Part shown: positions 15,193 through 43,107 of the stretch, one piece after another
Numbering within the stretch: the stretch's first letter is position 1
How the letters are laid out: the number at the start of each line of letters is the position of its first letter
NCBI GenBank assembly: GCA_017161075.1
Contig: CP046174.1
Coordinates: forward strand, 3,348,001-3,412,000
Direction of reading: 5' to 3'
DNA: 64,000 bases
From: Erysipelotrichaceae bacterium 66202529
GTDB lineage: Bacteria > Bacillota_I > Bacilli_A > Erysipelotrichales > Erysipelotrichaceae
The notes under the pieces: model-generated
Databases searched by the model: none
The model's input: only the letters and a program-made list of their open reading frames with translations
Told to the model about the DNA's origin: nothing
Position numbers and translations under genes: made by a program

Positions 15193-17184
15193 TCATTCAG
15201 ATTCACCAATCAATATAGGATTTTTGATCTTATATACTATCTCAATAGAAGTTTCTGTTACATTGATTTTTGAGATAATCTCATCTAAGAACCTTGTTTT
15301 GAAATTCCTACTCTTAAAAATATTTTTGAGTAGTTCTGCTTCATCCAAAACAGCCTTTGATTTACGTTTATAGCTTGAGATAATGTCTCGCTCAATATCT
15401 AATTGCTTATTAAGCAGGATGGCATTTTTTTGATACTCCTTAATCTTATCATAGAATAAGGAATCAGAAATCATACCGTTAGCTCGATCAGAATAAATCA
15501 TATCAATTTTGTGCATTTGGATATCTAGCTCCTTTTCCAAGCGATTGCGTTCTACTATATGAGATGCAACAGGTTCTAAATATATTTGCTCAACTTTTTT
15601 TTCAAAGTCACTACTCTGCACATATTTTGAAAGATTTTTTAATCGTAAAGTAACTTCATTTTCTATATCTAAATAAGATATATGTTTTTGGCTGATACTG
15701 CAAGGAATGATATGCTTTACTTTTTCAGAGGGGCAATATACATTTTGCTTTTTCCTTTTCTCAGTAATTTTAGTTATTTGCATTTTTCGTCCACAGCATC
15801 CGCAATATATATATTGATATAGAATGGGTTTATCTAATAAAGCAGTTGGTTTTTGCTTTGTTGCCATCAGTTCCTGTACATGTTCAAACTGATCTTTACT
15901 TATCAAAGCAATATGACAGTTTGGAGTTACGATTTTCACACCATTTACTTTACGAACATTGCAACCATAATATCCTTCATTTTTTAGTACACATCTGATT
16001 TTATCAGGTGTCCATACATCCTTAAAAGTTGTAGAACCTTGTGTTTTTAAATAGCATTTCGGTGTAATATAGTTACGTTCATTACAGATATCTGCAATAC
16101 TTCTATACCCATATCCTTGTTCATATAAATCAAAAATTTCATGTACAATGTAGGCAACCTTTTCGTCAATAACTAATGAATAATAATCATTACTGTCATG
16201 TGTGTAGCCAAATAGGGTAAAACGATGATGTGCTTTGTGAACATCCTTTGCAATCTTTTTTTTATCAAGTCTCATTGTATTCGCCATATCAAAGGTTTCT
16301 TCATCAATGATAGGTTCATGACGGTTATCTTTGCATAATAGATATTTTTTATCCAGCCTAACAGATTTCTTGCTTTTGAGACTTACTTTTATATACTTGT
16401 TACTTAGAACACTTCCTAAATAAACTTTATTTTGTATTGTATTCAAAATGAAAGATTTATCCCATTTATAACAAGTGTCTGTATCTGTCTCATACAAATT
16501 TCCAGTTTTGCGATATCTCGCTGGAGTTGAAATATGTTCTGAAGTCAAAATATCAGCAATAGCCTTAGCAGAATGATTGTTTATATATAATTCAAATATC
16601 TTTTTGATAATTTTGCTAGATGAATCATCAATTATCAAATGGTGATGATCGGTAGGGTCTTTCATGTATCCATAAGGAGCAAATGAAGATAAATATTCTC
16701 CTTTTTGTCGCTTGCTGTAAATCACTGCTTTTATGCTGTCTGACGTTTGATATGGATAGAAGTCATTGAACCCTATTTTAAGAATTAAATCACTGTTAAC
16801 GCACTCTATCGCAGTATCAACGTTATCATTTATTGCAAGATAACGTATTCTATGCTCAGGAAACCATTTTTCAACATAAAATCCAACCTTGTTAGAATCT
16901 CTGCCAAATCTTTCAAGAGATTTAGTAATGATTGTATTTATTCTTCCTTTTTCAATATCTTGCATCAACCTATTGAAATCAGGACGATCAAATGTCATTC
17001 CACTTATACCATCATCTATATATTCATCAACATATGTTAAATTATGCTTTTCCATATATAAATGAAGTTGTTTTCTTTGATTCTTGATACTTTCGCTCTC
17101 TACATCATCTCCATCCGCTACTGAAAGTCTATAATACAAAGCAATTTTATTTGACTTATAGTAGGTAGTATTCAGTTTACGCAT
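15193..17184 (-). CDS. large serine recombinase, second of a pair
   Basis: Probable integrase/excisionase of the ICE. 663 aa. N-terminal resolvase domain (about 12-160) with the catalytic Ser in YYRLSVADGD and helper Arg motifs in KSLERFGRD; recombinase DNA-binding domain (about 185-310) and a second related region; Cys zinc ribbon near 445-480 (CGCCGRK ... CPSEK ... CSIS); coiled coil near 540-600. AAGGAAG precedes the ATG. It overlaps the next recombinase gene upstream by 8 nt, and its stop lies only 42 nt from the attL core. Whether it acts alone or with its partner cannot be read from sequence. Confidence 0.93.
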   Translation of the reverse strand: MRKLNTTYYKSNKIALYYRLSVADGDDVESESIKNQRKQLHLYMEKHNLTYVDEYIDDGISGMTFDRPDFNRLMQDIEKGRINTIITKSLERFGRDSNKVGFYVEKWFPEHRIRYLAINDNVDTAIECVNSDLILKIGFNDFYPYQTSDSIKAVIYSKRQKGEYLSSFAPYGYMKDPTDHHHLIIDDSSSKIIKKIFELYINNHSAKAIADILTSEHISTPARYRKTGNLYETDTDTCYKWDKSFILNTIQNKVYLGSVLSNKYIKVSLKSKKSVRLDKKYLLCKDNRHEPIIDEETFDMANTMRLDKKKIAKDVHKAHHRFTLFGYTHDSNDYYSLVIDEKVAYIVHEIFDLYEQGYGYRSIADICNERNYITPKCYLKTQGSTTFKDVWTPDKIRCVLKNEGYYGCNVRKVNGVKIVTPNCHIALISKDQFEHVQELMATKQKPTALLDKPILYQYIYCGCCGRKMQITKITEKRKKQNVYCPSEKVKHIIPCSISQKHISYLDIENEVTLRLKNLSKYVQSSDFEKKVEQIYLEPVASHIVERNRLEKELDIQMHKIDMIYSDRANGMISDSLFYDKIKEYQKNAILLNKQLDIERDIISSYKRKSKAVLDEAELLKNIFKSRNFKTRFLDEIISKINVTETSIEIVYKIKNPILIGESE

Positions 17185-18751
17185 AATGATTTAACTTCCT
17201 TATGCGATAATGGATTCTTATATTTCGCTCTTTATCAATATATACCTTTTCAATAAGGCGATTTATAATTTCTTTCGATGGAGTATCAGATGACAGAAAG
17301 GATTTTATAATCCGTTTTATTTCATCATTATCAAGATCAGATGTTTTATGTGATTCAAGCCTAGATTGCAATTCTTTTATTTTTTCTGTTTCTATTTCAA
17401 TTTCATTGTTAATTCGATTAGCAAACCTCATATAGATACTTGCTTCAATTACCTCATTAAGTCTATCTTCATAAAGTAAATTTAGCTTACGTTTTAACCC
17501 ATCTATATTATCTCTTGATCGTTGGATCATTTTATTGATATCCTGTACATCATTGCATACAGCAACAATATCATCAATATTATCATAGTCGAATTGTAAA
17601 AACAGTTTTTTAATGTTGTTTAAAACAGCTTTTTCGAGTGAATCATAATCTAATTTGTGTGAACTGCATAACCCTTTAGAGCTGAACTTTTTATAAGTGT
17701 TACATTGGCAAAAGAATTTTTTCTTATTCTTATCAAAAGAAAGGGAAACTTTTGCACCACAATCGTAGCAAAACAAGAGAGGTTTAAGGAGACATTTATC
17801 ATAATCAATTTTATTATCTGCGCATTCTTTCGTTTTCCTGTTGGAAATGGCATTAGCCAATGCGAAAGTTTCTTCGTCAACGATAGCATCAGTCCAATTA
17901 CTTTCTATTGCCTGATCTTCTTCTGCAACAGGTATACGTTTTCTTGATTTATAACTTACAGATTTTGTAGTACCTGATACATAGCAACCTTTATAAATTT
18001 TATGATTTATTATCCTTTTGATTGTATTGCCTTTCCATATTTCAGGGTGTTTACTTAATTTTTGAGGATTAGGCAAATACTGACAAGGTGTTTTTACACC
18101 CCTTGCGGTTAATAACTTCGCAATTTCAGAATAAGGTTTACCGTTGATGTAAAGCATAAATATTTCTTTGACAATGATACTTTGCTCCTCATTTGGAATA
18201 AGGTGGGTGGCATCTTTTGGATCACGCATATAACCGTAAGGTGGATGATTATGCCAATATTCTCGATTTTCTCTTTTAGTCTTGAATACACTGTTAGTTG
18301 AAATACTGGTTTGTAAAGGAACCATATCATTACTACCAAGTTTCAAAGGCAGTAATGCATTATTCACTCTTTCAGCACCACTATCATAATCATCCAAAAG
18401 ACTAATATAGCGTACTCTTTGTTCAGGAAAGAATGTTTCAATGAAATAACCAGTCTCAACATGATCACGCCCAAGTCTAGAGAAATCTTTTGTTACTACA
18501 CCTTTAATAGTTCCGTTTAGAATATCTTGCTTTAATCGTTCAATGTCAGGTCGATTGAAATTACCACCTGAAAAGCCATCATCCTTATATTCTTTGAATT
18601 TTTTAATGCCACTACGTTTTACTACTTTGGTTATTAGATCACGTTGGTTCTTAATACTATCACTCTCGTTAACGTTGTTATCTCTCGATAAGCGATAATA
18701 TAATCCCCATGTACCCGACATCAATTCAGCGTTTTTTATGACCTCAATCAT
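17177..18751 (-). CDS. large serine recombinase, first of a pair
   Basis: 524 aa. Catalytic Ser in YYRLSRDNN (about residue 21), KDFSRLGRD motif near 86, recombinase domain with the DGFSGGNFNRPD loop, zinc ribbon near 330-370 (CYDCGAK ... CQCNTY ... GLCSSH) and a C-terminal coiled coil. AAAGGAGCGCT precedes the ATG. It is co-transcribed with the 663-aa recombinase from the TGGTATAAT promoter at 18,792. The two proteins are related but clearly diverged, like other two-recombinase elements such as SCC ccrA/ccrB. Confidence 0.93.
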   Translation of the reverse strand: MIEVIKNAELMSGTWGLYYRLSRDNNVNESDSIKNQRDLITKVVKRSGIKKFKEYKDDGFSGGNFNRPDIERLKQDILNGTIKGVVTKDFSRLGRDHVETGYFIETFFPEQRVRYISLLDDYDSGAERVNNALLPLKLGSNDMVPLQTSISTNSVFKTKRENREYWHNHPPYGYMRDPKDATHLIPNEEQSIIVKEIFMLYINGKPYSEIAKLLTARGVKTPCQYLPNPQKLSKHPEIWKGNTIKRIINHKIYKGCYVSGTTKSVSYKSRKRIPVAEEDQAIESNWTDAIVDEETFALANAISNRKTKECADNKIDYDKCLLKPLLFCYDCGAKVSLSFDKNKKKFFCQCNTYKKFSSKGLCSSHKLDYDSLEKAVLNNIKKLFLQFDYDNIDDIVAVCNDVQDINKMIQRSRDNIDGLKRKLNLLYEDRLNEVIEASIYMRFANRINNEIEIETEKIKELQSRLESHKTSDLDNDEIKRIIKSFLSSDTPSKEIINRLIEKVYIDKERNIRIHYRIRKLNHYA

Positions 18752-25566: not shown

Positions 25567-25579
25567 ATCATTCAGATAC

Positions 25580-26761
25580 TTAAAATTCAATACTATCTTG
25601 AACTGCATATTCTCTAGCTAATTCTGCCTCTTGTTTTAAACGATTCGCTGTATAAGATAACACTGCTAAATCATATGTAACATCATGAAATACGGTGGAA
25701 TAAAGGAAATTAGAATATGCTTTACATTCTTTTTTACTTAAACTCTTTTTATTTTTAACTGGTTGATCAATAGTGCGTGCTTGCTTTATCGTTTGCAATA
25801 TTAGGTTACCGATCCGATCATCAATTTTTTTCATTTGATTATCTTTATATTTTTGATAACGTTGGTCAAATTTATTCCCACCATAAAGAAATATATTTTT
25901 GTCTATAATTTTTTCTACTTGCAATTCGTATTCCTGTATAGCTTGTGCAATCTCATTATCATCTTTTATTATTTTAATTACTTCATTTATATCATTTTTA
26001 TATGGTAAAACATTAGCACTATTATATTTTAACGAACCAGATACAGGAAGTGTATTATATAATTTCATTAGTAATGGATACAAATCTTTTGAGGATGTAT
26101 CATGTGAAAAAAATTTGCTGAAGGAATGATTTTGAACACTTTTTATCACTTTTTTATCTACATTACTGTTTTGCAATATAGTTATGAAATCATTGAATGC
26201 CGTATCCTTTGTTGAGAGTAATTCAGCAGAATTTATGAGGTACGATCCAAGTGTAGACTTCATTTTCATAAATTTTTTCTTGTTGATTTTAAGAAGCTTT
26301 TTTGTAGGCATTTTCTCATACATCCATATGTGTACATGCGGGTTGTCCGTATTTGTGTGATAGTATGCTCCCCACATAACATTACTAGGATCAAGTCCTA
26401 ATTCAATAATATTTCTGTTCATTGTTTTTGTTATGAATTGTTGCATATCTTTAATATCTGTTAAATTATTCTCAATAGCAAACTCTGACCTTACAGATAT
26501 CACCATTTGGTAGTAAGAATCAGGATGATATTTCAATATATCTTTCTCAACTTGTTTACGTTCATAAATGCCATTTTTTCCAAAACACCCTGTACTACCT
26601 AGTCGGTATTCATAATAATCCAGCATCTTATTTGTTTCTACTGAAAATTTGCAACATCTGTCATCTCGATCGTAATAGTTCAACATCCTGTAAATATTGA
26701 TACCGTCATTTTTCCTGTATCTCAAATTCACAATAATTTGAGCTTTATCTTTATTTTTCAT
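25580..26761 (-). CDS. conjugative relaxase, MOBP-like
   Basis: Nicks oriT and pilots the transferred strand. About 393 aa from ATG 26761 (MKNKDKAQIIVNLRY). The HUH metal motif is visible as NPHVHIWMYEK near residue 154; candidate catalytic Tyr residues occur in the first 45 residues (YRMLNYYDRD, MLDYYEY) and at KYHPDSYYQMV. The start needs care: GGAGG overlaps the T4CP stop, 35 nt before this ATG, with a 28-bp palindrome between. A GTG at 26797 is in frame but touches the site. Subfamily assignment as MOBP rests on the RP4-like nic site found at 29,078. Confidence 0.82.
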   Translation of the reverse strand: MKNKDKAQIIVNLRYRKNDGINIYRMLNYYDRDDRCCKFSVETNKMLDYYEYRLGSTGCFGKNGIYERKQVEKDILKYHPDSYYQMVISVRSEFAIENNLTDIKDMQQFITKTMNRNIIELGLDPSNVMWGAYYHTNTDNPHVHIWMYEKMPTKKLLKINKKKFMKMKSTLGSYLINSAELLSTKDTAFNDFITILQNSNVDKKVIKSVQNHSFSKFFSHDTSSKDLYPLLMKLYNTLPVSGSLKYNSANVLPYKNDINEVIKIIKDDNEIAQAIQEYELQVEKIIDKNIFLYGGNKFDQRYQKYKDNQMKKIDDRIGNLILQTIKQARTIDQPVKNKKSLSKKECKAYSNFLYSTVFHDVTYDLAVLSYTANRLKQEAELAREYAVQDSIEF

Positions 26762-26765
26762 TTGA

Positions 26766-26793
26766 TAAAAGTAGGCAATATTGCCTACTTTTA
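26766..26793. promoter_or_regulatory. 28-bp perfect palindrome between ribosome binding site and relaxase start
   Basis: Core GTAGGCAATATTGCCTAC extended by TAAAA/TTTTA on the sides. As RNA it folds into a hairpin leaving 3 + 4 unpaired nt between GGAGG and ATG, close to the ideal 7-nt spacing. It may equally be a dyad operator. Confidence 0.7.
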
Positions 26794-26800
26794 ACACCTC

Positions 26801-28798
26801 CTAGCTATTAAGTACATTCATAATATCATTGAATAAGGTATCAGGATCTATATCGGGTTCTTCTGAAGATAATGAATTATTAAACGTATTTTGCTCATCC
26901 AAATGATTGATAAAATCTTGAAATGTCTGACTGTTTAAATAATCTGCAATTTTATCTATTATTTCAGGATTTATTTCATCTTCATCACATTCAGTTTCAA
27001 AATAATCTAATATATGATCCTGAACTTGAGCGGTTATATCGTTACGCTGAGACCAATACCAAAAAGTTATACCAAAAAAATCTACTGCTCTTGGAACCGC
27101 ATAATGTAACTCCATATCAGCTACTGGTGTTTCTGTCTTATCTTCTTTTATGATTTTACTATATCTATATTTTGACCAATCGGGGAGTGTAGTAAAGATT
27201 GGTTGCATATATGTTCTCATAACTATAGCTTCACCTTTCTCCTTGTTTAAAGTTTGCAATTCATTGGCATCAATCAATGATCTTTTGGTCTGCTGATAAG
27301 AACTACCTCCGCCTTGAACCGTTGCAGAAGAATTATAGTTTTGTGAATAACTCTCTGTCCAAATTGTTTCTGATCCTATTTTTCTTTCAATTTCCTCACA
27401 TGTAGAATATTCACCACTGGCGATATATATCCATAAATTGCAATTACCTCTAATAGTCTTTGCTACTTTTTCACCATAGATTTCATCAATCTGACTTGTA
27501 TCTTGGACAAATAAATGATAAATGATTCCTCTTGATCTTGAAACAGTAATTTTTCTACTCATATTTTCCTGTTTTATCAAATTACCATATTCGTCTAAAA
27601 TCATATGTATTCTCCGTGGTAATCGTCCGCCGTATTCATTGGCTTTAAATACCAAAGTTTTATAAATCTCATCAAGTAGCATGGATACAACAGCATCCTT
27701 ACTGGTTTTTTCGTCTGGAGTTATACAAAATAATGCACATGGTTTATCACCAAATGTTGAAATGTCGAAATAGGATTGTGCCATCATTTTAGCCAGTTTT
27801 ATACTGGAAAAAATGTTTAATGTTGCAAGTGATGATGTATAAAAAGACCCCCTTGTTTTATCAGGAGCATTTTGTACTGTAGTAAACGCTACTCTTGCTA
27901 TATCCGTTTCACCAAGGGAATTGAAAAATTCATTTAACGGAATGATTTTATTTATTGGTTTTGATAATAAAGCTAAAGTTTGATACACACTATAAAAATT
28001 CTTTTTAGAATCAGGAACATTTGCTTGGGCTACTGCTAATATCAACCCCTTGATTAAGGCACGCTGACCGTCAATCCATATTTTCTCACCAGCTCCATTA
28101 TCTATTACTAAACTATTGGATAGATCACCAGCTAACTCGTCCGCATCGTCAATATTATCTTCTTGTAGATATCTAATAATGTTAGTTAAAGGATTCCATT
28201 TATCGCTATATTCAAGATTTCTAAAATCAACACAATAAACAGCATATCCCAATCCTTTTAAAAAATTTCTAAATAAGAAGAATAATTCTTTCTTTGGATC
28301 ATTCACTACCATACTTTCTTTTGCTTTTGAAATAAGTGCTATTAAAATACGTACAATTTTTCTACTTTTACCGCTTGCAGTTGTACCAATTACTAAGCTA
28401 TGTACATCATGCTTTTCATAAAGTAATTCATCCTTTTTCCAAAATTTAATACCTTTGGGCAGATAGTGTATAGGCAAGCCACCAACATCTAAATTCTCAT
28501 CCATATTCGTTTGAGCAAAAAAAGTTTTCTGTTCGTCTAATGTAGCCCACCTAGAAGATGCAAGTTTCGTTGATTTTTCTAAATTATATGTGATTTTAAA
28601 TATCATGGCACATATAAGATATATTGAGATACCAAAAGATAGCATAATGATTTCAATTTTATTTAACTGAAAACATTCTATCATTTCAGTATTTGTTAAA
28701 GTGGAAATTATAATTGTAATACACAAGGGAAATATCAACATAAAAGCTATGAATATAATTGAGAATCCTACCCATTTATTTAATTTATGTTTATTCAT
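26801..28798 (-). CDS. VirD4/TraG-type coupling protein
   Basis: ATPase that brings the relaxase-DNA complex to the secretion channel. 665 aa. Two or three N-terminal membrane segments (about 10-30, 43-68); Walker A VIGTTASGKSRK near 137; Walker B MILDEYGN near 398; a QDTSQI motif near 430. A short C-terminal tail EPDIDPDTLFNDI resembles the tail of the 611-aa protein at 29,158. AAAGGAG precedes the ATG. It is followed directly by the relaxase and preceded by the oriT region. Confidence 0.94.
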   Translation of the reverse strand: MNKHKLNKWVGFSIIFIAFMLIFPLCITIIISTLTNTEMIECFQLNKIEIIMLSFGISIYLICAMIFKITYNLEKSTKLASSRWATLDEQKTFFAQTNMDENLDVGGLPIHYLPKGIKFWKKDELLYEKHDVHSLVIGTTASGKSRKIVRILIALISKAKESMVVNDPKKELFFLFRNFLKGLGYAVYCVDFRNLEYSDKWNPLTNIIRYLQEDNIDDADELAGDLSNSLVIDNGAGEKIWIDGQRALIKGLILAVAQANVPDSKKNFYSVYQTLALLSKPINKIIPLNEFFNSLGETDIARVAFTTVQNAPDKTRGSFYTSSLATLNIFSSIKLAKMMAQSYFDISTFGDKPCALFCITPDEKTSKDAVVSMLLDEIYKTLVFKANEYGGRLPRRIHMILDEYGNLIKQENMSRKITVSRSRGIIYHLFVQDTSQIDEIYGEKVAKTIRGNCNLWIYIASGEYSTCEEIERKIGSETIWTESYSQNYNSSATVQGGGSSYQQTKRSLIDANELQTLNKEKGEAIVMRTYMQPIFTTLPDWSKYRYSKIIKEDKTETPVADMELHYAVPRAVDFFGITFWYWSQRNDITAQVQDHILDYFETECDEDEINPEIIDKIADYLNSQTFQDFINHLDEQNTFNNSLSSEEPDIDPDTLFNDIMNVLNS

Positions 28799-29121: not shown

Positions 29122-29157
29122 GGCTAATCGAATAGCTGGATACTTTTCTATAAAATT

Positions 29158-30993: not shown

Positions 30994-31474
30994 TTTTTTC
31001 TCCTCGATTCTTTTTTACATACATATTCTCATATCCTGTTTTATAAAACTTTTTACGTAATCGCTTGTCCTTTTTTTGAGATATATTATTAAATGTGAGA
31101 TTTTTATTGAATTCAGAGAAATCACTTTGAAAAAGATGCTCAATTTCAATTCCAGTACCCACAATGTATGCAAGCTCGTCAGTAGTAAGGTAATGGCATA
31201 CTAATTCTCTTTCCTGTGTGATCACACAAATAATTTTTACATCGGGATTCAGGAGCTTTAAAGTTTTAACTGCGTAATAAAGGTCTACATCATTATACAT
31301 ATCCCCATCAATTAGGATATGTGTCAAGTTGGTTACTCGCAACGCAATAAGGTTTATAGCAGTTTTATTTTCATAATGATTTATGAAATATAAGGTGCTG
31401 TCTAATTCATGAAATTCCTTTTGCAAATTATCCATAAACTCATGACTTCCAAATACGATTATTTTCATATTCAT
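30974..31474 (-). CDS. receiver-like/Rossmann-like protein, 166 aa
   Basis: The alternating pattern MKIIVFGSHEFMDNL ... HILIDGDMYNDVDL ... NPDVKIICVIT resembles the beta/alpha fold of response-regulator receivers and TadZ/CpaE N-termini, but no clear phospho-Asp with its Thr/Lys partners is seen. The last 35 residues are strongly basic (KKDKRLRKKFYKTG, KKNRGEKNGRKKK), suggesting nucleic-acid contact. Coupled with the 611-aa gene by a 20-nt overlap. Role unknown; possibly part of the relaxosome. Confidence 0.6.
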   Translation of the reverse strand: MNMKIIVFGSHEFMDNLQKEFHELDSTLYFINHYENKTAINLIALRVTNLTHILIDGDMYNDVDLYYAVKTLKLLNPDVKIICVITQERELVCHYLTTDELAYIVGTGIEIEHLFQSDFSEFNKNLTFNNISQKKDKRLRKKFYKTGYENMYVKKNRGEKNGRKKK

Positions 31475-31478
31475 CCTC

Positions 31479-32027
31479 CTAGATCGTCTTAGAACGATAT
31501 TTTTTATATCCTTGATTTTCTAAATTAGATATTTCTTGATCACTTAATCCATTCAGTTTCAAAATATTCAATAGGTTATCAATGCGTTTTTGATCAGACC
31601 TTATCTGTTTTATATAAGTTATATATAAAGTATCCTCAATTAACTTTATGATCTCTTTTTTTGAATCAGCCAATTTATCAAAGTAAAGGTACTGTTCAAC
31701 ACAGTACCTTATTGCTTCTGACGTATTATCTAAATGTTCTCTTGCTTTGATTTTTTCTAAATCATTCATAACTGTTTCGCTCAATCTGCTACTCACTGTT
31801 ATCGTTGGAGCAGGTATGAAGTCAATAATAGGTATATCATAATAATCAAAAATTCTTTTTAGTACAATAGCATCTACTTTTCTGATTTTAAACTGTTCAA
31901 TTCTGCGGTACAAGTTTATATCAATATGTAGATGTTCAGATACTTCGACTTGTTTAATGTGTTTATCTAAACGCTTTTGCTTGATTGTCACTGACATATC
32001 AAAAGTCAAGAGTATTTTATTATTCAT
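31479..32027 (-). CDS. XRE-like HTH fused to ribbon-helix-helix, 182 aa
   Basis: Residues about 14-65 form an XRE-type helix-turn-helix (KQVEVSEHLHIDINLYRRIEQ); about 75-115 form a ribbon-helix-helix (TVSSRLSETVMNDLEKIKAREHLDNTSEAIRYCVEQY). Two DNA-binding modules in one small protein is unusual. RHH proteins are common relaxosome accessory factors, so it may bind oriT or the GTAGGCAA repeats at 26,766 and 32,239. It overlaps the 74-aa gene by 4 nt. Confidence 0.7.
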   Translation of the reverse strand: MNNKILLTFDMSVTIKQKRLDKHIKQVEVSEHLHIDINLYRRIEQFKIRKVDAIVLKRIFDYYDIPIIDFIPAPTITVSSRLSETVMNDLEKIKAREHLDNTSEAIRYCVEQYLYFDKLADSKKEIIKLIEDTLYITYIKQIRSDQKRIDNLLNILKLNGLSDQEISNLENQGYKKYRSKTI

Positions 32028-32248
32028 AAGGTGGGTTCTTCTTCCTCAAGGATCATTTGATTAAACCTATTCTGTAAATCTTTATAGCATTTCTCATATT
32101 CATTAACAGATTTTCCTTTAAGATAATTCGTAAAATCAGATAACTCCAGTTTCTCGGAAGCATAAATATTATAATCCATGACTAACTCTAATATTTTTGC
32201 TGTCCATGCACGTTTGATCGCATTCTCCCTTTGTTGAAAAGTGGGCAT
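32024..32248 (-). CDS. hypothetical 74-aa protein
   Basis: Short soluble helical protein (MPTFQQRENAIKRAWTAKILELV...), acidic C terminus EEEEPTL. Its start codon lies inside a hairpin (32,239-32,260) that also holds the presumed AGTAGG ribosome binding site. It is coupled to the XRE-RHH gene (ATGA overlap). No family recognised. Confidence 0.65.
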   Translation of the reverse strand: MPTFQQRENAIKRAWTAKILELVMDYNIYASEKLELSDFTNYLKGKSVNEYEKCYKDLQNRFNQMILEEEEPTL

Positions 32249-32260
32249 TTTTGCCTACTT
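32239..32260. promoter_or_regulatory. start-codon hairpin related to the relaxase palindrome
   Basis: Minus strand AAGTAGGCA AAAA TGCCCACTT pairs 8 of 9 positions and encloses the ATG of the 74-aa gene. It shares AAGTAGGCAA with the palindrome at 26,766-26,793. Confidence 0.55.
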
Positions 32261-32261
32261 T

Positions 32262-32921
32262 CTATAGCTCAACCGCTTCTTCACAAGAAACGGAATGAAC
32301 GATCTGACGTTTTTTTTGAGGAAAATGAGATAATTCTTTATCTAATTTTTTGATATCACGTGCTGTCAAATACTCATCTAATGATGTGATCTTTCTCTTA
32401 GAAAAAATTTCATCAATTTTTTTAACAAAAATGGCATTTACCATTTCCTTATTTTCGAGATCTGATTTATAAATTCGGTCATGAACATATTTTTGCTTTA
32501 TCTTAGAGAGTGTATCTTTAATTTGGATTTCTACTGGCATCGTCTTATATTTGATATCCATATGCAAAGCGGTATATCCTGATTTTGGGGTATGCTTATA
32601 GTAATCAGAAATTTCAACACATTTAAAATGATCGTTTATTATATGCTGAATTTTAGGTACATCTTCCTGACTTCTGCAAACAATACTTACACCCATTAAA
32701 TCTGTTAATTGCTTCATTTCTTTATATCCTTTTCGATCAATTTTTTCAATAATGCTTTGTGGTGTTTTATATCTACCTTTCAGTGAATAATCAAAGCCAT
32801 AAAAAAAGCCACTAGATTCTAGTAGCTGGATGAGATCAAATTGTAGTAGTTTTAAATAATCTTGTGATTCAAGATAATTTCTAAAGAATATTGCCGATTT
32901 CTTCAATTTGCTGTTTGACAT
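32262..32921 (-). CDS. small alarmone synthetase (RelA/SpoT synthetase domain)
   Basis: 219 aa from ATG 32921, chosen because AAGGAGG lies 7 nt upstream; the frame is open 13 codons further. A stand-alone RelA/SpoT synthetase domain: KGRYKTPQSIIEKI (about 48-61), the metal-binding Asp in LTDLMGV (D74), YKHTPKSGYTALHMDI (about 108-123) and the catalytic Glu in VEIQIKD (E131). The spacing matches RelQ/RelP, so it could make (p)ppGpp. Alternatively it is a toxSAS that pyrophosphorylates tRNA, since it is paired with a hydrolase whose gene it overlaps by 41 nt. Confidence 0.88.
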   Translation of the reverse strand: MSNSKLKKSAIFFRNYLESQDYLKLLQFDLIQLLESSGFFYGFDYSLKGRYKTPQSIIEKIDRKGYKEMKQLTDLMGVSIVCRSQEDVPKIQHIINDHFKCVEISDYYKHTPKSGYTALHMDIKYKTMPVEIQIKDTLSKIKQKYVHDRIYKSDLENKEMVNAIFVKKIDEIFSKRKITSLDEYLTARDIKKLDKELSHFPQKKRQIVHSVSCEEAVEL

Positions 32922-33474
32922 TCTGAACCTCCTTTTCAAGTTCTGCAAAAAGATCATCATAGTGAGGATTATTCAATTCACTTAAATGAGTATCAATAAT
33001 AGGTAAGAAAACCGTTTCAGTTTCATCTATATATCTCTGTACCTTTATTGGGTTAGGACAATTTTTTAATGAGCTAACATTATGAATTCTATCTAACATT
33101 TTGATTTTAAGTGCTATTAAATCAGTGCATACTAGCTTTAAATAATCTGAATAAGATATACCTTTTTTATGCGTCAATAACTGAATTTTATCGGCTATTG
33201 CTATACCAAACTCTTTTTTAATTTCTTCATATGTAACATCTGTATCCTCAAGAGTATCATGCAGTAAAGCAATGATTATTTCATCAGGATTAGTAAGTCT
33301 TTTAGATACTGCGATAGGGTGCGATATATACTCTGTGCCTTCATCTCTCATTTGCCCTTTATGAGCTTTCTTAGCAATCTTATATGCAAGATATACTTTA
33401 TATTTCTGATCATTTTCTTGTTGCTCATATTCGCTGAAATCAACGTTAAATTCGTTATAATCATATTCTTTCAT
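32881..33474 (-). CDS. small alarmone hydrolase (HD domain)
   Basis: 197 aa. Stand-alone HD-type hydrolase domain as in Rel/SpoT N-termini and MESH1: AHKGQMRDEGTEYISHP (H38, H52), ALLHDTLEDT (H72-D73, E76-D77) and KMLDRIHNV (D128), which together supply the Mn-binding residues. It should remove pyrophosphate from ppGpp or from a modified tRNA. AAGGAGG precedes the ATG. It comes first and overlaps the synthetase gene by 41 nt, so the hydrolase is made before or with the synthetase, an order suited to an antitoxin. Confidence 0.88.
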   Translation of the reverse strand: MKEYDYNEFNVDFSEYEQQENDQKYKVYLAYKIAKKAHKGQMRDEGTEYISHPIAVSKRLTNPDEIIIALLHDTLEDTDVTYEEIKKEFGIAIADKIQLLTHKKGISYSDYLKLVCTDLIALKIKMLDRIHNVSSLKNCPNPIKVQRYIDETETVFLPIIDTHLSELNNPHYDDLFAELEKEVQNVKQQIEEIGNIL

Positions 33475-33485
33475 AAAGTCCCTCC

Positions 33486-33767
33486 TTATATTTCAATATC
33501 ATCATATTCTTGATCTTCTGCCCAACAAGCATCATTCAAGAGTTTCGATGTTATTTTATCAATATCTGTGTTATGTTTTCTTAGAATTTTTTGTACTTCA
33601 GGAAAATATTCATTGTAATAACAATCATCTATTCTGCGTAGTAAACAAACAAGAAATTCCATCTTTTCCTGAATATTATTGATATTCTCATACCAATTAG
33701 AATACTCCTCATAAAATGAATTTGGTAGATGATGCAACATACTTTGTATCAAATTATTCATGCTCAT
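33486..33767 (-). CDS. hypothetical 93-aa protein
   Basis: Soluble, rich in Tyr/Asn/Glu with an acidic C terminus (AEDQEYDDIEI). Overlaps the 1715-aa gene stop by 4 nt (ATGA) and lies 11 nt upstream of the alarmone hydrolase. Not recognised; it may be a third member of the alarmone module. Confidence 0.65.
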   Translation of the reverse strand: MSMNNLIQSMLHHLPNSFYEEYSNWYENINNIQEKMEFLVCLLRRIDDCYYNEYFPEVQKILRKHNTDIDKITSKLLNDACWAEDQEYDDIEI

Positions 33768-36700
33768 GCCTCCATTTCGATGTTTTCTTCATTTACGATT
33801 TCAACAGTGGTAGAGGGATCGTTCAAAGCAAGATCTATTTCTTTTTGTCGGTTTAATAACTGGTTAAGCATTTCTGCATCTTTGAATTGACTCGATATGA
33901 TTTCTTCTAATACAAGTTGGTTATCTAACTGAACGGCTTTTTGATTTTGTAATGTGGTTAATTGATCTTCCATTTCTGAAATCAGTTTATCGAATCTATT
34001 AAAATTCACTTGCACTAAATTACTAATACTAGCTGGACGATAAGAATCATTTTTAGCGATAAGAATGAAGTATAATTCAAGTCCAACCTTTTGAATAGCC
34101 ATGTCATATCCACGATATTTCCCAAATGGTTTTTTATTATCTGTTAATAAATTGAAATTTTGAATTAGCCGTTGTAATTCTTCGCCAGCCCTTTTTATAT
34201 CAGTATAAGTAATATCGTTAATTGTAACAGAGAATGTTTTACTATTATCTTTCATAGAAACATCTTCTTCTAATAAGGCTATTTGATCTTCTAATTTTTT
34301 AATCTTTGCTGGCAACTCTATTATACTCTTTTCTGCTTGAAATTTCTGCTTTAAAAAATTAGATTTTTTCATCTGTAATTGTCTTATTTGATTATCTACT
34401 TCCATTTTTTTACGTATGAGGGGATTTCCTGATGCGATTGCTTTTATTTCAGCATATGATAATATATTTTCATCCATTTCATCCATAGTACGAATTGTGT
34501 TTGATCCCTCAAGTAACTGTTGCATATAGGTACTCTTTGTCTCAATAATCTGCCATGAATATGCATCGTAGCTCTTAACAGTTACATATCTAAATTCATA
34601 TATGGCATCAAACATATTGCCTTGTCTAAACCCACGTCCATTCCTTTGTTCAATGTCACTTGCTTTCCACGGAACATCAATGTGATGTATTGCACATAAG
34701 CGTTGTTGTATATTTGTTCCAGCTCCCATTTTTGGTGTGCTGGCAATTATTATTCTTTTTATACCATCATTTAATTCATCAAAAAGTAGACTCTTTTCAC
34801 TTTCTGTCTGATAATCATGTATGAAGGCTATTTCTTCTTTTGGTATTCCATGCTCAACAAGCAATTTACGCAATTCAAAATATATATTCCATTTATCATT
34901 ATTAGGAGTGCTATAATCGCAAAATAACACTTGTACACCTTTGTTTTCTGCAAACTCGTCATAGACTTTTTTCACATTGCTTGCTATACCGATGATTTTG
35001 GTGCCAGCTATGCACCCATATTCTTCATCAATAAGTCTAAGGTCTATAGATGCCTTTTTACTATCGGTATTCACTTTAAGCGGATTATCTACTCTAGGAT
35101 CAACAGCATTCGCATGTATAAGTTCCATTCTTTCAACCACATCCTCCATGTATTCTTTTAATTCAGGACTAGGTTCATTTTGGATGATTATTGGCTTTCC
35201 TCCAATTCTAGTAGGTATCGTAGAGTTTTGCCTCTGTAATTTACTATTTTTCATTTCGTTTGCAAGCATATTAGAGGTCATAATGATCGCATTTTTACGA
35301 AACATTTGCATGAGTTCAGGTATATTGAAAAATTTATTGAATCTTTCTTTTGTTTGATAACTACCACCATCAACGCTGATTTCTAGTGTCTGCGTGACTT
35401 TACCATAATTTTTAGCCCATGCATCAAAACTATAAATTTGTTTCTCCTGTAATAGATCCTCCTGTAGATAACGCTGAAATGTATATAATTCTGTCATGGA
35501 ATTACTCATTGGAGTACCTGTAGCCATAATAACACTTCCACCTTTAGATTTGATATAGTTTGCTTTACAATATAAATCAAAAGCTTTTTGCGATGCAGTC
35601 GTACTTACACCAGCAATGTTAGACATTCTCGTTGTTATAGCTAAATTTTTAAAATAATGTGCCTCATCTACACATAATAAATCAATACCCAACTGTTGCC
35701 ATACAATACCGTCATCTGTTTTATGATCAAGCAAAGATTCTATTTTAGTTTCATATGATTTTTTTGAACTTTCTAAACGTTTAATCAAATATGTGTTTTT
35801 TACATCTGATTCTCTCTCTAACTCTATAGCAACGGATAGATCATCAATCATATTTCTAATGCTATCTATCTGATAATCTTTTGATAAAGGAATCAATTTA
35901 AAGGACGAATGGGCAATGATTATTGCGTCATAATCATTAGTTGCTATACGGTGGATAAAAGCATTTCTATTATCTTTCTGTAAATCTTTCTTTGTAGCAC
36001 ATAGAATATTTGCAGATGGGTATAACGTATAAAATTCTTGTGACCATTGCATAACCAAATGATTAGGTACAACTATCATAGGTTTTGTTCTTAAACCAAT
36101 ACGTTTTAGTTCCATAATTGTTGCAATAATCTCAAAAGTTTTTCCAGCACCAACTGCTTGAGCTAGTAGGGTATTACCTCCAAACATCATTTGTGCAACA
36201 CTATTTTTCTGAAAATCCTCTAAAGTGATTAGTGGATTCATTTGAGGAAAAGTAAGATACGCACCGTCATACGTTTGCAAAACATCAGAATTATATAAAT
36301 TATTATAGATTTTTTCTAAATCTTCTCTACGGTTTAAATCACTATAAATCCAATCTTGCCATACAGAATCCAAGTTGTTCGCTTTATAACGAGCTTGTAT
36401 TGTACGTTCTTTATTCAATTTACTTTTTACTTTCTTTTTTCCATTTTCGTAAACATCATAATAATTCATGATTTTAATGGTTTTGGAGTTAATAACATCA
36501 TCCATTAAATCAATTATACTATAGTCAGGTTGTCTGTATTTTATATCCAAGTTTTCAGATGGGGGTACTGCCCAGTTATCATAATAGTTCATATTAAGTA
36601 TATACTTTGGAATCATTATATCCCAACTTCCCAGTAAGGGAGAATAACTAGCTTTTACTGAATCCTTTTGATATCCTTTGATATTTAGAAGATGACAAAT

Positions 36701-38911
36701 AAATTCAGATACATATTTTGCTGGAACCCATGTAGTTCCTAGCTGACAAGTGATATTATCTGCTGTTATCCACTCAGGTAGAAAACGTTTTAAATCTGTA
36801 ATATTGTTGTCAAACCTACCATCATCATTTTTACTTTCTGCTATTTTTAGTTTCTCTCTTATATTGCCACTTAGATATTCATTGCTAGGGGTTAGGGAAC
36901 CATCTTTAGGATCAACATAAATTTGATGTTCTTTCAATAACTCAGCCTCTATATCTTCTTTACTCTTGTTGTAAATTGTTTGCATAAAATCTATATTTAT
37001 ACGTCCAAACTTATCTAAAGAAACTAACATAGCGTCTTTGGCAGATTCAGCATGTATTATCTGATCACGAGGTTTAATAGTTCTTTTTCTAAAAATATCT
37101 GATGTAGACACTTTATTTGTTTTCTTATCAATGATTTCAAGTGCCATAAGCATATAAAAGTTAGGATCATTTCTGAATATCCTGAAATTCTCTTTTGAAT
37201 TGATATATCCATATTGAATAATAAATTCATTATAGGATTGTTTAAGTTGCTCTTGTAAATTTTGAAATTCAATTTGATTAAAATTATGTAATTGTATATG
37301 AATGAGCTTTTCTATAATGTTTTCTATAAGCAATAACTGTCTAATTCTACTCTCATTTTTATAATCAGTTAATTTTATTTTATTTGAACTTTGCCTACGA
37401 TAAATATCACGATCAATCAAAAAATAAGCACCATCTTTTATATTTTGGTATTCACTTTCTAGTTTTGTGATTTGAGTTTCATTTTCATTTAAGAAAATTT
37501 CTTCTTCGTGATAAATATCATCAGGGAAGTGATCAACTGCTCTTTGTAGCATTTCAGCAAGAGTAAACTCTTTGTTTGGATTCACAGTTAATTCATGACC
37601 ACCAAAAGCATTAGATCTCGTTGTTAGTGTTCCGAGTATCATATGAGGATTGCTAGTGAAATAATGATTGATATGTTTGCCTTGAAACTCATCTGTTTTA
37701 AGCCAACTGTTTTCTTCATCAACGGTAACTCTTAATTGATCTAGTTTCTTTAAAAATATGATATCGCTCGTTATAGTGGTGTTTGCTCCATTCTTTGTGA
37801 ATGTGTTGTTAGGTAGGCGTATTGCACCGATTAGATCTGCTCTCTCATATAGCCATTCACGTATTTTATTATTTGGATTATCTAATGTTGCCGTTGAGGT
37901 TATAAAACACAAAAGCCCGCCTTGGCGGACTTTTGATAATGCTTTAGCAAAAAAGAAATCATGGATTTGAAAATTATATTTAGCAAACTCTCGATCGTAA
38001 ACACTGTATCTACCAAAGGGTACGTTAGATATGGCTAAATCAAACGAATTATTTTGATATTCAGTTTTCTCAAAACCTTTTATTTGCACTTCAATACTTG
38101 GATAAAGATATTTGCAGATACTTCCGGATATATTGTCTATTTCAACCGCATTGATATTACTATTTGTACGCATATCATTAGGCATCAATCCAATAAAATT
38201 ACCAGTACCAACACAAGGGTCTAAGATATTTCCACAATCAAATCCCATTTTCTGTACAATCTCATACATAGACTTTATCACTACTTGCGGTGTATAGAAG
38301 CTTGTTAAAGTGGATGCCATACATTCTTTGTATTCTTTATCAGATATGTATTTCTGTAATTCTTCTCGTTCTTTTTTCCAATCAGGATTTTGATTATCAA
38401 AAAGATGGGGTAGACCGCCCCATCCTGTATAATGCGATAAAATTTCCTGTACATCTTGTGTTAGCTGTATTTCACTTGCCTCTAATGATCTTAAAGTTTT
38501 TATGGCTTTAAGATTGTTCTTGAACTTCTGCTTTGCATTTAAAGATTGATCTTCATTCTCTATGCTAAAGTCATGTTGCGAACTTGTTGAACTAAGTAAT
38601 CCATTGTCTGTCTCTCTGCTTCGCTTTTTATTTTTACTATGTTTGCGGTCATCTCTGGGTAGCTCGTCTCTGGTGTCCCATAGATCAAGCTTAGGTTCTT
38701 CATAATTCGTACTTCTACTTTTTCTACTTCTTCTTCTAACAATTTTACTTGAGTTGTCAAGGTTTTCTGAAAACGTAATTTGTGATAAACTTTCGGATTC
38801 TCCTGTTTCAAAATTTCCACGATCATTTTTTGCATCGATGTCCCAATCAAAACTGGCGAATAAGCTGATTTGGCTTTCATCATTATTTATCACTCCTTTG
38901 TTCTTACTCAT
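33764..38911 (-). CDS. 1715-aa N6-adenine methylase / SNF2-type helicase fusion
   Basis: Large DNA-modifying protein of the type carried by many Clostridial ICEs, thought to protect or process incoming DNA. Order: charged disordered N terminus (1-115); methylase domain with the SAM motif LDPCVGTGNF (about 232) and catalytic SNVPFG (about 297, the NPPF equivalent); middle region; helicase with Walker A AVGAGKTFEI (about 920), VDEAH box (about 1082), ATGTPMSN (about 1130) and motif VI QRNGRGFRQGN (about 1424); coiled coil and C-terminal region. It is one uninterrupted frame. Helper for conjugation or anti-restriction is inference. Confidence 0.9.
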   Translation of the reverse strand: MSKNKGVINNDESQISLFASFDWDIDAKNDRGNFETGESESLSQITFSENLDNSSKIVRRRSRKSRSTNYEEPKLDLWDTRDELPRDDRKHSKNKKRSRETDNGLLSSTSSQHDFSIENEDQSLNAKQKFKNNLKAIKTLRSLEASEIQLTQDVQEILSHYTGWGGLPHLFDNQNPDWKKEREELQKYISDKEYKECMASTLTSFYTPQVVIKSMYEIVQKMGFDCGNILDPCVGTGNFIGLMPNDMRTNSNINAVEIDNISGSICKYLYPSIEVQIKGFEKTEYQNNSFDLAISNVPFGRYSVYDREFAKYNFQIHDFFFAKALSKVRQGGLLCFITSTATLDNPNNKIREWLYERADLIGAIRLPNNTFTKNGANTTITSDIIFLKKLDQLRVTVDEENSWLKTDEFQGKHINHYFTSNPHMILGTLTTRSNAFGGHELTVNPNKEFTLAEMLQRAVDHFPDDIYHEEEIFLNENETQITKLESEYQNIKDGAYFLIDRDIYRRQSSNKIKLTDYKNESRIRQLLLIENIIEKLIHIQLHNFNQIEFQNLQEQLKQSYNEFIIQYGYINSKENFRIFRNDPNFYMLMALEIIDKKTNKVSTSDIFRKRTIKPRDQIIHAESAKDAMLVSLDKFGRINIDFMQTIYNKSKEDIEAELLKEHQIYVDPKDGSLTPSNEYLSGNIREKLKIAESKNDDGRFDNNITDLKRFLPEWITADNITCQLGTTWVPAKYVSEFICHLLNIKGYQKDSVKASYSPLLGSWDIMIPKYILNMNYYDNWAVPPSENLDIKYRQPDYSIIDLMDDVINSKTIKIMNYYDVYENGKKKVKSKLNKERTIQARYKANNLDSVWQDWIYSDLNRREDLEKIYNNLYNSDVLQTYDGAYLTFPQMNPLITLEDFQKNSVAQMMFGGNTLLAQAVGAGKTFEIIATIMELKRIGLRTKPMIVVPNHLVMQWSQEFYTLYPSANILCATKKDLQKDNRNAFIHRIATNDYDAIIIAHSSFKLIPLSKDYQIDSIRNMIDDLSVAIELERESDVKNTYLIKRLESSKKSYETKIESLLDHKTDDGIVWQQLGIDLLCVDEAHYFKNLAITTRMSNIAGVSTTASQKAFDLYCKANYIKSKGGSVIMATGTPMSNSMTELYTFQRYLQEDLLQEKQIYSFDAWAKNYGKVTQTLEISVDGGSYQTKERFNKFFNIPELMQMFRKNAIIMTSNMLANEMKNSKLQRQNSTIPTRIGGKPIIIQNEPSPELKEYMEDVVERMELIHANAVDPRVDNPLKVNTDSKKASIDLRLIDEEYGCIAGTKIIGIASNVKKVYDEFAENKGVQVLFCDYSTPNNDKWNIYFELRKLLVEHGIPKEEIAFIHDYQTESEKSLLFDELNDGIKRIIIASTPKMGAGTNIQQRLCAIHHIDVPWKASDIEQRNGRGFRQGNMFDAIYEFRYVTVKSYDAYSWQIIETKSTYMQQLLEGSNTIRTMDEMDENILSYAEIKAIASGNPLIRKKMEVDNQIRQLQMKKSNFLKQKFQAEKSIIELPAKIKKLEDQIALLEEDVSMKDNSKTFSVTINDITYTDIKRAGEELQRLIQNFNLLTDNKKPFGKYRGYDMAIQKVGLELYFILIAKNDSYRPASISNLVQVNFNRFDKLISEMEDQLTTLQNQKAVQLDNQLVLEEIISSQFKDAEMLNQLLNRQKEIDLALNDPSTTVEIVNEENIEMEA

Positions 38912-38943
38912 ATTTTACCTCCAAGTGAAGTTTTTAACAAGTC

Positions 38944-39834: not shown

Positions 39835-39835
39835 T

Positions 39836-42271
39836 CTAATTTTTTTTCATAGCATCGAATAATTCTTTAGTAGCTGTATCCAAAGCTACATTAAGCCGAC
39901 ATGATGCATTCGTACCGATACGCATATAGCATTGACCTATTTTTGCTTTTGCCACAAAATCAAGCTCTGATTTAGGTACAAGCTTCGTTGAAGTCAAATA
40001 GGATACACCAGCATGACCTAAGCCAAAATAAAAAGCATAAGTCGAATTTTCTATAATGCTCTCACCATATTCCTTCACTGAATCGTTTAAGACATCTGAT
40101 ATTTGTTGTGTTGCACAGGATAAACCACCCTTGTATTTTCTAATGCGTTTCACTATGTTTTTTTGAAATTTACCAGTTTCAGGCATATCAGGATCAAGTA
40201 TTACATGAAATTCATCCTCATATAGTTGTTTCCAAGTATTATCATCAGATGATAGAATATCAGTCCACACATATGAAATGATATTGTAATATTGTGTCCT
40301 TAATATACGTTCATCGCCATTCTGCAATCCTGAAATCACAAAGCATAGCAATTTGTTGTTTAGATTTATATTTGTATGATGATTAAAAATTGCACTATCA
40401 GCACCAACTGCTAGAGGTCGAATCAAAGCAACAACTTCATTAAGCCTTTCAACCTTTTTACTTTCTTTCCCGTATTTTTCTATGTATGCATCCTCTTTTT
40501 TCATAAGATGATCATATAAATCTGACATAATAGGAAAGTCTTGAGAACTATAGTTTTTCACTATATCTTCCGCACTGGTATCATACGTAATACCACATTT
40601 TTCATATATTTCCTCTAAAGCTCTTTCTATTTCTGAAAAATGCAAAATGCCAATAGTATCTTGAATGTATAATCGAAAGAATGTCCGTAAAAAGTGTATA
40701 TGTCTTGATAACGGAAAAATATCTTTTAAATCAACTTTGCTATCTAAGTCACTATCATCATCAGGAAGGTCAAATCGTATATGTAGGGGATTGATAATAC
40801 CTTTATTACCGTTGGCACAATCAATTACTGCACCTTTTAAATAACGTGCAAGTTTTGGTAATTCCTTGCCTTCTACATCAATGATATATTGCTTATAGTT
40901 TCGTGCAAAGCGTGTAAGAATCAATAACATAAGTAAGGTTGTCTTACCCATACCACTATTTCCAGCAAGAAATTCATTGCTATTACTACGATCGTTTTGT
41001 CTGATACAGTTGTTATAAAAAACCACACCATTCGACCAATCTGTATACCCAAGAAATACAGCTAAGTGTTTGTCATAAAGAGACTCAAAAACCAAAGGGA
41101 ATCCCCATGCTAAAGTGTCTTGAGTAGTCATTTTATTATATTCTTTTAAAAGATTGTTACATATAGGGGCGGTTGTATGAAGTAGCTTGGTTTGCTCTTG
41201 AATTCCTTCACGTAATGTTATGTTAATGTCACGTGCATAGTTTTTTATATCAAGAATTTGGCGTTTTAAATCTTCTAAATTTGAATTTTTGATCCGCAAG
41301 GAAACAAAAAAAGATAATGGCTTATAGTCACTACCTGTCATTTTACTTATAATTTTCTCTATATCTAATAGTTGCTTTTGAATAGAAGCTTTTGCTGTTG
41401 TATCTGATTCTCTATTATAAGATCGAGTTAATGTTTTATGTGTTTTATTTAATTGTTTGCTTAGTTCATTTCCCTCTGTTTGTTCAAAATGTAAAGAGAA
41501 GTCTACATCAGGCATCATTGTCAAGTATGATAGATAGGCAAATATAGGAGTTGCTGTATAAGAATATACAAATAGTTCTTTCGTATAAATTCCATCAATG
41601 CAAATTGATTTTTTTAAACCATCTTTTGCCTTTTCCATAACAGTAGGACATATGTAATCCATGATATCATTACCCAGTACATCAAAGAAAGCTCCATCAA
41701 AGGAGCTTGTATACGGATTATAGTAATTATATATGATCTTAGTCTGATCAAGAATAGATAATACTTTACAGGGAATTAGATTGCTAATTGATCTAATTAT
41801 CTCAGATACTTTATTATCAAGACGATCTATATCCGTATCTTTTAATAATAAGATAAATGCTCGATCAATCAGTGTCATTTCTTTTGCTGTATTGGCAAGT
41901 TGTTGCTTGTCATGTTCTAATACTTCATAACGCATCATATCTTGTTCATCTGTGAAATCAATCATAGCCTGTAAATCATCTATTTCATTTAAGTATCCAT
42001 CAATATCTGCGCCAATTTCATAGCTAAATAATTGTCCACATCTTGCGGTAAAAATATGCTGATAAGTTGAGATATAATCATACTGATCATCTTTAGATAA
42101 ACCAAAAATATTTACTGCAGAAAGCTGTATCATTTTAATATATTCTTTATTGTTTTTTATGTAGTACAACGCCTTGTCATAATCGTATGAGAATGGAAGT
42201 GAATCACGTATTGAATTATGAGTTTTGATTTTCTTTGTAATTTGCTTTTTAGTACTTTTTTTCTTTCTCAT
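39836..42271 (-). CDS. VirB4/TraE-type conjugation ATPase
   Basis: Motor ATPase of the type IV secretion system. 811 aa. N-terminal half forms the VirB4 barrel-like region; Walker A GNSGMGKTTLL near residue 438; Walker B-like LYEDEFHVILDPD near 690; the following GGLSCATQQISDVL matches the VirB4/TraC sensor motif. Start overlaps the 181-aa gene by 4 nt. The N terminus is strongly basic (RKKKSTKKQITKKIK). Confidence 0.94.
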   Translation of the reverse strand: MRKKKSTKKQITKKIKTHNSIRDSLPFSYDYDKALYYIKNNKEYIKMIQLSAVNIFGLSKDDQYDYISTYQHIFTARCGQLFSYEIGADIDGYLNEIDDLQAMIDFTDEQDMMRYEVLEHDKQQLANTAKEMTLIDRAFILLLKDTDIDRLDNKVSEIIRSISNLIPCKVLSILDQTKIIYNYYNPYTSSFDGAFFDVLGNDIMDYICPTVMEKAKDGLKKSICIDGIYTKELFVYSYTATPIFAYLSYLTMMPDVDFSLHFEQTEGNELSKQLNKTHKTLTRSYNRESDTTAKASIQKQLLDIEKIISKMTGSDYKPLSFFVSLRIKNSNLEDLKRQILDIKNYARDINITLREGIQEQTKLLHTTAPICNNLLKEYNKMTTQDTLAWGFPLVFESLYDKHLAVFLGYTDWSNGVVFYNNCIRQNDRSNSNEFLAGNSGMGKTTLLMLLILTRFARNYKQYIIDVEGKELPKLARYLKGAVIDCANGNKGIINPLHIRFDLPDDDSDLDSKVDLKDIFPLSRHIHFLRTFFRLYIQDTIGILHFSEIERALEEIYEKCGITYDTSAEDIVKNYSSQDFPIMSDLYDHLMKKEDAYIEKYGKESKKVERLNEVVALIRPLAVGADSAIFNHHTNINLNNKLLCFVISGLQNGDERILRTQYYNIISYVWTDILSSDDNTWKQLYEDEFHVILDPDMPETGKFQKNIVKRIRKYKGGLSCATQQISDVLNDSVKEYGESIIENSTYAFYFGLGHAGVSYLTSTKLVPKSELDFVAKAKIGQCYMRIGTNASCRLNVALDTATKELFDAMKKN

Positions 42272-43105: not shown

Positions 43106-43107
43106 AG

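Follow-up and report, generated by a model that had tools for sequence, protein, structure and literature searches.

What role could genes for the making and breaking of an alarmone have among the transfer genes of an integrative and conjugative element (ICE)? The question is raised by two adjacent genes on the minus strand of Erysipelotrichaceae bacterium 66202529, at 32262..33474 of the stretch analysed here (the window: 64,000 nucleotides of contig CP046174.1, assembly GCA_017161075.1, positions 3,348,001 to 3,412,000), which encode a small alarmone hydrolase (SAH) and a compact small alarmone synthetase (SAS). The answer that we tentatively prefer is that the ICE may carry a self-contained device for making and destroying a (p)ppGpp-type alarmone, co-expressed with its transfer genes. 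Since a stand-alone synthetase and a stand-alone hydrolase are co-encoded with transfer genes, an alarmone-acting device, as already proposed from the sequence alone (hereafter the sequence-only reading), is the natural reading of the locus.

Organization of the gene pair

The first gene of the pair (32881..33474, minus strand) encodes the hydrolase, a 197 aa protein with an HD domain, and the second (32262..32921, minus strand) encodes the synthetase, a 219 aa protein with a RelA_SpoT domain and with Ser79 instead of the usual Arg. The longest frame of the synthetase, from 32960, comprises 232 aa, and the start located behind a good ribosome site is its 14th codon. With the start taken there, the two frames overlap by exactly 41 nt (32881..32921, minus strand), and the synthetase start codon lies within the hydrolase gene. 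Each gene has a strong Shine-Dalgarno sequence, the ribosome sites of the pair being AAGGAGGTTCAGAATG and TAAGGAGGGACTTTATG. The gene order, the overlap and the strong ribosome sites described in the sequence-only reading were thus all recovered with this start codon. The predicted models of the pair had mean predicted local distance difference test (pLDDT) scores of 84 and 88, and their structure matches were the expected solved relatives. Together with the family E-values given below, these models and relatives show that both genes are real and form a well-formed pair beyond chance.

A terminator-like hairpin with a T run is located inside the synthetase gene (32807-32827, minus strand), and could lower the synthetase relative to the hydrolase. 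Two terminator-like sites were found, against a mean of 1.0 (sd 1.1) in shuffles, a number not clearly above chance, and the terminator was dropped as a real feature. Promoter-like sites were not enriched (17 found, 21.0 expected).

The hydrolase

The hydrolase (P0002) matches Pfam HD_4 (E 7.8e-13) and contains no synthetase domain, which makes it an SAH. The residues H38, H52, H72-D73, E76-D77 and D128, listed in the sequence-only reading, are all present, and are invariant in the alignment of P0002 with 20 of 23 related proteins. The protein also carries R43 and a DRIHN motif, both Rel-like, whereas the solved (p)ppApp hydrolase of B. caccae (7smg) has Asp at the R43 position and no DRxHN; we infer that these positions set the specificity of the hydrolase. 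The corresponding motifs of long RelA/SpoT homologues (RSHs) were read by pattern in 17 rows, of which two were unread and L011 was probably misread at the first motif, while L006 was misread and L038 unread at the second.

In the hydrolase tree, built from 51 of 52 hand-chosen rows, the hydrolase of the pair grouped with stand-alone hydrolases at 92/90, under the 95 mark, and long RSHs were separate at 100/96; the approximately unbiased (AU) test was run for the synthetase only. Relatives of the hydrolase are common: tblastn with a threshold of E 1e-5 matched 285 records of phages and 293 of plasmids, not individually examined. The scans with the hydrolase alignment A2 covered the best 80 of 541 genome relatives and the best 80 of 172 viral relatives. 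In these 160 loci, matches at E <=0.01 to the window synthetase (P0001) or to its 87% identical relative (P0003) were found only in L006, L013, L050 and L064, where each of them lay in the frame of a long RSH, together with an HD domain.

Active site of the synthetase

Pfam RelA_SpoT (E 3.6e-18) was the sole family found in the synthetase, and the HD domain is absent, so the protein is an SAS by its domain. The core residues R50, K52, S56, K60, D74, Y116, H120, E131 and Q133 are present in P0001. The sequence-only reading was borne out for D74 and E131, but it did not include the loss of the adenine-stacking Arg (R95 in FaRel2), which is Ser79 in both P0001 and P0003, an equivalence drawn from the alignment and from the spacing of the FaRel2 residues. 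This Arg is a conserved residue of the superfamily but no stated membership rule, and the filing as SAS by domain holds.

The best distant relative of P0001 in 291 genomes of the class of genome G003 is a 165-aa lone synthetase located behind rplT (L214), and a profile search starting from it led to a group of compact proteins. Residues were counted in 96 proteins, with compact and classical groups set by rank in the profile-search list, independently of the residue; P0004 is outside the alignment, P0069 and P0079 are outside both groups, L164-L166 are uncounted, and the rows include many near copies and some fragments. At the R95 position, the 44 compact rows have Met (40), Ser (2) or Ile or Leu (2), whereas Arg is found in 50 of 50 classical small synthetases and in 14 of 16 long RSHs, the other two having Lys and a gap. 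A second substitution changes IQIR to IQIK (Lys135 in P0001); Lys is present in 41 of the 44 compact rows, and Arg in all 50 classical and all 16 long rows. The triphosphate-binding R63 (FaRel2 R77) is kept in P0001 and P0003, while the position is hydrophobic in 38/44 compact rows. In addition, the hairpin ahead of EIQI is about 8 residues shorter than in RelP and RelQ, a trait also found in long RSHs and in a Nitrososphaera phage protein and therefore not by itself diagnostic of the compact group, and the synthetase has VHDRIYK where the two long RSHs compared carry an MH..AE type stretch.

Placement of the synthetase among known families

In the best tree, P0001 and P0003 grouped with the compact proteins at 98/86, on a stem of 2.21 changes per column, and small synthetases and long RSHs parted at 100/99. 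The tree comprised 58 of 60 hand-chosen rows (L038 was unmatched and one more was lost to the length filter) and did not include FaRel2 and CapRel. In the AU test, neither the placement of P0001 and P0003 among classical small synthetases (p 0.375) nor that among long RSHs (p 0.09) was rejected. Together with the shared substitutions, the tree makes it likely that the synthetase is a member of a compact group that is rarely found. The term "split" used in the sequence-only reading is not supported by this placement among small synthetases, although the AU test falls short of fully rejecting an origin from long RSHs. As for the placement among the FaRel and RelQ subfamilies that the same reading envisaged, the compact group was favoured and the classical SAS grouping not rejected, with FaRel outside the comparison.

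Ranked by profile, the solved relatives were RelP, RelQ, Rel, FaRel2, CapRel and Tas1, best first; by fold, RelQ, RelP and Rel were tied (15.2 to 14.7), followed by CapRel (12.9), Tas1 (11.2) and FaRel2 (10.5). Both the profile and the predicted fold therefore bring the synthetase closest to RelP, RelQ and Rel, in a comparison where the toxic SAS (toxSAS) were represented by FaRel2, CapRel and Tas1, with FaRel, PhRel, PhRel2 and cloRel outside it; cloRel is a Firmicutes subgroup (PMC3153485). P0001 scored 37.2 bits with GTPPhKinYjbM, the NCBIfam equivalog for RelP/RelQ, against a cut-off of 320. All 18 members of A5, an alignment of 18 hand-chosen compact rows, matched the PADLOC candidate defence protein model PDC-S33 (best E 3.9e-15), and the P0001 match covers positions 68-170 of 349, about one third of the profile.

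Distribution of the synthetase and of the pair

A word-based search of ~5.8 billion proteins, which is blind to relatives sharing no 5-residue words, found only P0003 and a shortened P0004 as close sequences beyond the synthetase's own cluster. P0004, a metagenome protein of 141 aa, tracks P0003 to about residue 111, beyond which its tail is unrelated, as a frame change would produce; this tail could be due to decay or to sequencing error. Scans of viral and genome contigs with the synthetase found no close relative, and tblastn of plasmids and phages gave distant matches only (5 and 13 records), none reaching 80% coverage. In sets of 296, 291 and 244 genomes, which may overlap, the best-scoring matches to P0001 were 36, 34 and 30% identical, and no identity >39% was present among the matches listed.

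The A5 profile matched at E 1e-15 in 152/391 genomes of the class of G003, where only G003 itself (259 bits) scored above 86 bits; judged by score and frame length, and not individually checked, the matches in the remaining genomes correspond to classical small synthetases or long RSHs. At E 1e-26, matches were found in three of 191 genomes of its order. In all three of these, the match is a lone compact synthetase located directly behind rplT (L214:1408-1905, L267:6912-7493 and L268:5700-6200), and is possibly a translation-linked alarmone enzyme. No P0002 match was found in the 12-16 kb around each of these genes, save a 13-residue chance match (E 2.3). Among the four compact loci with readable surroundings, the ICE copy alone has a hydrolase, while metagenome members come without context.

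The best match in the family of G082 (the nearest by MreB, 72%) was a 173-aa small synthetase of genome G976 (L285:9315-9836), which keeps the Arg (DIIGIRIIC) and lies beside two-component regulator genes; no hydrolase match was found in 19 kb of this locus.

The transfer operon and the element

The genes surrounding the pair include the transfer functions of the element, and those given with coordinates in this paragraph are all on the minus strand. Upstream are a methylase/SNF2-type helicase of 1715 aa (33764..38911; Pfam SNF2-rel_dom, Eco57I and Helicase_C), a VirB4-type ATPase (39836..42271; Pfam P-loop_TraG, 5.1e-08), an M23 peptidase and a protein with weak similarity to TrbL (under the Pfam cut-off). 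Between the methylase/helicase and the hydrolase is a 93-aa open reading frame (ORF; 33486..33767), which overlaps the preceding gene by 4 nt and has no Pfam, NCBIfam or PADLOC family match. Directly behind the synthetase is a 74-aa ORF (32024..32248) with no Pfam or NCBIfam family match and a weak PADLOC PDC-S02 match (E 0.0042). It was considered as a second antitoxin and dropped, as it contains one YxxY, a short motif frequent by chance, and no curated family match. Next is a helix-turn-helix (HTH) or ribbon-helix-helix (RHH) type protein (31479..32027; weak HTH_3 and RHH_1 matches under the Pfam cut-offs), which might, at a guess, be a relaxosome accessory, followed by ORFs of 166 aa (30974-31474) and 611 aa (29158-30993). 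From the methylase through the 611-aa ORF, neighbouring genes overlap or are <=15 nt apart, and a 359-nt gap lies ahead of the gene for the VirD4/TraG-type coupling protein (26801..28798; Pfam T4SS-DNA_transf, 6.6e-47), which precedes a MobL relaxase (25580..26797; Pfam MobL, 2.7e-25). The position given in the sequence-only reading, between the methylase/helicase and the relaxosome genes, is right, with the 93-aa and 74-aa ORFs to be added.

Two large serine recombinases with frames sharing 8 nt were found at 15193..18751 (minus strand; Pfam Recombinase and Resolvase). The element interrupts asnB, whose N-terminal half (59002-60186) covers positions 2-139 of the Asn_synthase profile and whose C-terminal half (14478-15209) covers 137-353; the halves meet in the profile, and therefore asnB is the target gene. 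Recombinase, relaxase, coupling protein, VirB4 and integration site were all found, identifying the element as an ICE. No end repeats longer than 11 nt were detected between 14900-15420 and 58700-59250, so that the exact ends are not fixed. The G+C content of 15193-58900 is 30.7% and that of the flank at 59002-63551 is 44.7%, which suggests that the ICE arrived from a host of lower G+C. The ICE also contains a 1503-aa surface protein (47183-51694) with ten SpaA matches and a thioester domain, with Ig-like surface proteins on either side (46384-47310 and 51762-52688), and, near one end (54374-58261), PAPS-reductase-like, weakly ParB-like (under the cut-off) and ParA-like ATPase genes.

No phage or plasmid was matched by 25500-44800 in a megablast search, and viral scans with VirD4, the 611-aa ORF, A5 and P0007 found no relative. 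Relatives of the methylase/helicase were present at E 1e-60 in 24/395 genomes of the class of genome G002.

Proposed function and alternatives

Enzyme activity, product, coupling and effect on growth or transfer are what we infer from the sequence. With ATP as the pyrophosphate donor, the synthetase would pyrophosphorylate a guanine nucleotide at its 3' position; the product would be an alarmone of the (p)ppGpp type, which the hydrolase would remove. Given the Rel-like motifs of the hydrolase and the RelP/RelQ-like fold of the synthetase, the pair is most simply read as a cycle of this type. Both enzymes would be produced along with the transfer genes, and, with the hydrolase translated first, hydrolase would be present whenever synthetase is made; synthetase production would be tied to that of the hydrolase because the hydrolase gene comes first and the synthetase start lies inside it. 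The cycle could be switched by the control of the transfer operon or by the relative activity of the two enzymes, and its likely role would be control over the growth state of the donor, or of the new host, while the transfer genes are on. Plasmid donation in S. aureus is reported to be promoted when (p)ppGpp is raised, through a mechanism that the source gives as unknown (PMC13249265), and this makes a link between alarmone and transfer plausible.

Related operons were examined for the pair. In 14 stretches downstream of related methylases (seven of 15 kb, and seven of 2.5-8.1 kb ending at contig ends) no match at E 0.001 was found to the hydrolase, the synthetase, P0041, P0105 or P0011, and the same five proteins were unmatched at that threshold in 30 loci with 1.5 kb flanks. 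With VirD4 pieces 23-37% identical, the ICEs compared are distant, and the absence shows only that the pair is no general part of such operons. The pair is thus probably cargo, and the step from location to transfer function made in the sequence-only reading is weakened.

Three other explanations were weighed. The pair could be a toxin-antitoxin or phage-defence module, with a toxic SAS that makes (p)ppApp or modifies tRNA and the hydrolase as its antitoxin, retaining the ICE or aborting phage infection. The adjacent hydrolase and synthetase reproduce the layout of FaRel in Cellulomonas marina (PMC11782079), a small ORF of 74 aa follows here too, and all the A5 members match the defence candidate PDC-S33, although for P0001, with a third of the profile covered, this may be a generic RelA_SpoT match. 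However, both profile and fold ranked FaRel2, CapRel and Tas1 behind RelP, RelQ and Rel, the hydrolase motifs are Rel-like, and the three compact relatives with readable surroundings are lone genes with no hydrolase nearby. The toxSAS idea of the sequence-only reading therefore gained no positive support from the sequence, with FaRel itself outside the comparison, and we regard such a module as rather unlikely. More doubtful still is a synthetase that has degenerated or serves as a regulatory pseudo-enzyme, with an active hydrolase that alone lowers the host alarmone during transfer or shields the ICE from the stringent response. Ser79 and Lys135 at positions that are Arg in every classical row, the shortened variant P0004 and the hairpin within the gene would agree with decay, but P0001 and P0003 retain the rest of the core residues, and the hairpin number is not clearly above shuffles. 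Moreover, the same Arg is replaced throughout the compact group while the rest of the active site is kept, so the replacement looks like adaptation more than decay.

The third explanation concerns origin and is compatible with the other functional readings: a long Rel gene could have been broken in two and captured by the ICE. The order of hydrolase and synthetase domains as in Rel, the Rel-like hydrolase motifs and the AU test (p 0.09) leave some room for it, but the synthetase tree divides small synthetases from long RSHs at 100/99, VHDRIYK differs from the MH..AE type stretch of the two long RSHs, and the hydrolase falls with stand-alone hydrolases (below the 95 mark) with long RSHs apart at 100/96. 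We consider this origin very improbable.

If the preferred make-and-destroy device is real, the element would own a growth-control switch, with maker and breaker of the signal inside its transfer operon, and the alarmone-transfer link would be directly testable by simple gene removals. A bolder and improbable extension is that the compact synthetases form an enzyme class of their own, whose donor site was re-shaped (Met or Ser for Arg) for a different product or donor, and that the ICE captured one of them with a dedicated hydrolase as a private signal coupling transfer to donor physiology. The compact synthetases would also test whether the adenine-stacking Arg, near-invariant in the classical and long rows compared, is dispensable or marks a new substrate.

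Comparison with known systems

The ICE synthetase resembles RelP and RelQ of B. subtilis and S. aureus, its best profile and fold matches, in its core residues, but differs in its shorter hairpin, Ser79 and Lys135 for Arg, VHDRIYK, hydrolase partner and ICE location. The pair also resembles the FaRel/ATfaRel toxSAS of C. marina, in which the order is SAH antitoxin, toxin and second antitoxin (PMC11782079), in its adjacent hydrolase and synthetase with a small ORF behind; it departs from the toxSAS in the weaker matches to FaRel2, CapRel and Tas1 (FaRel itself being outside the comparison) and in hydrolase motifs unlike those of the solved (p)ppApp hydrolase.

The Rickettsiales amplified genetic element (RAGE) ICEs of Orientia and Rickettsia, which belong to another phylum and have another transfer system, likewise carry single-domain alarmone genes, as SpoT cargo. 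Orientia genomes are reported to have 15-46 intact hydrolase-only genes each, many truncated ones and one synthetase-only gene (PMC10732058), and the rickettsial synthetase and hydrolase groups are described as having arisen independently, not from splitting one gene (PMC3153485). In Treponema denticola, as here, a separate synthetase and hydrolase (Tde-SAS and Tde-SAH) putatively handle the same alarmones of one cell (PMC10434055). However, TDE1711 and TDE1690 are not adjacent, Tde-SAS has 410 aa with a TPR domain, and that host lacks a long RSH, as reported in the same article. Closest in the active site are the lone rplT-linked synthetases (L214, L267 and L268), which share the missing Arg, IQIK, the short hairpin and a VHDxIYK type motif; they are 31-38% identical to the ICE copy over ~110 residues and, unlike it, lie in a chromosomal translation-gene setting with no hydrolase nearby.

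Among the matches listed from Creative Commons-licensed literature (titles and abstract openings), no description was found of an SAS and an SAH encoded side by side in the transfer operon of a Firmicutes ICE. The occurrence of an SAS together with an SAH was already known, as were ICE-borne alarmone genes, and what is new is their combination with a transfer operon and an altered donor site.
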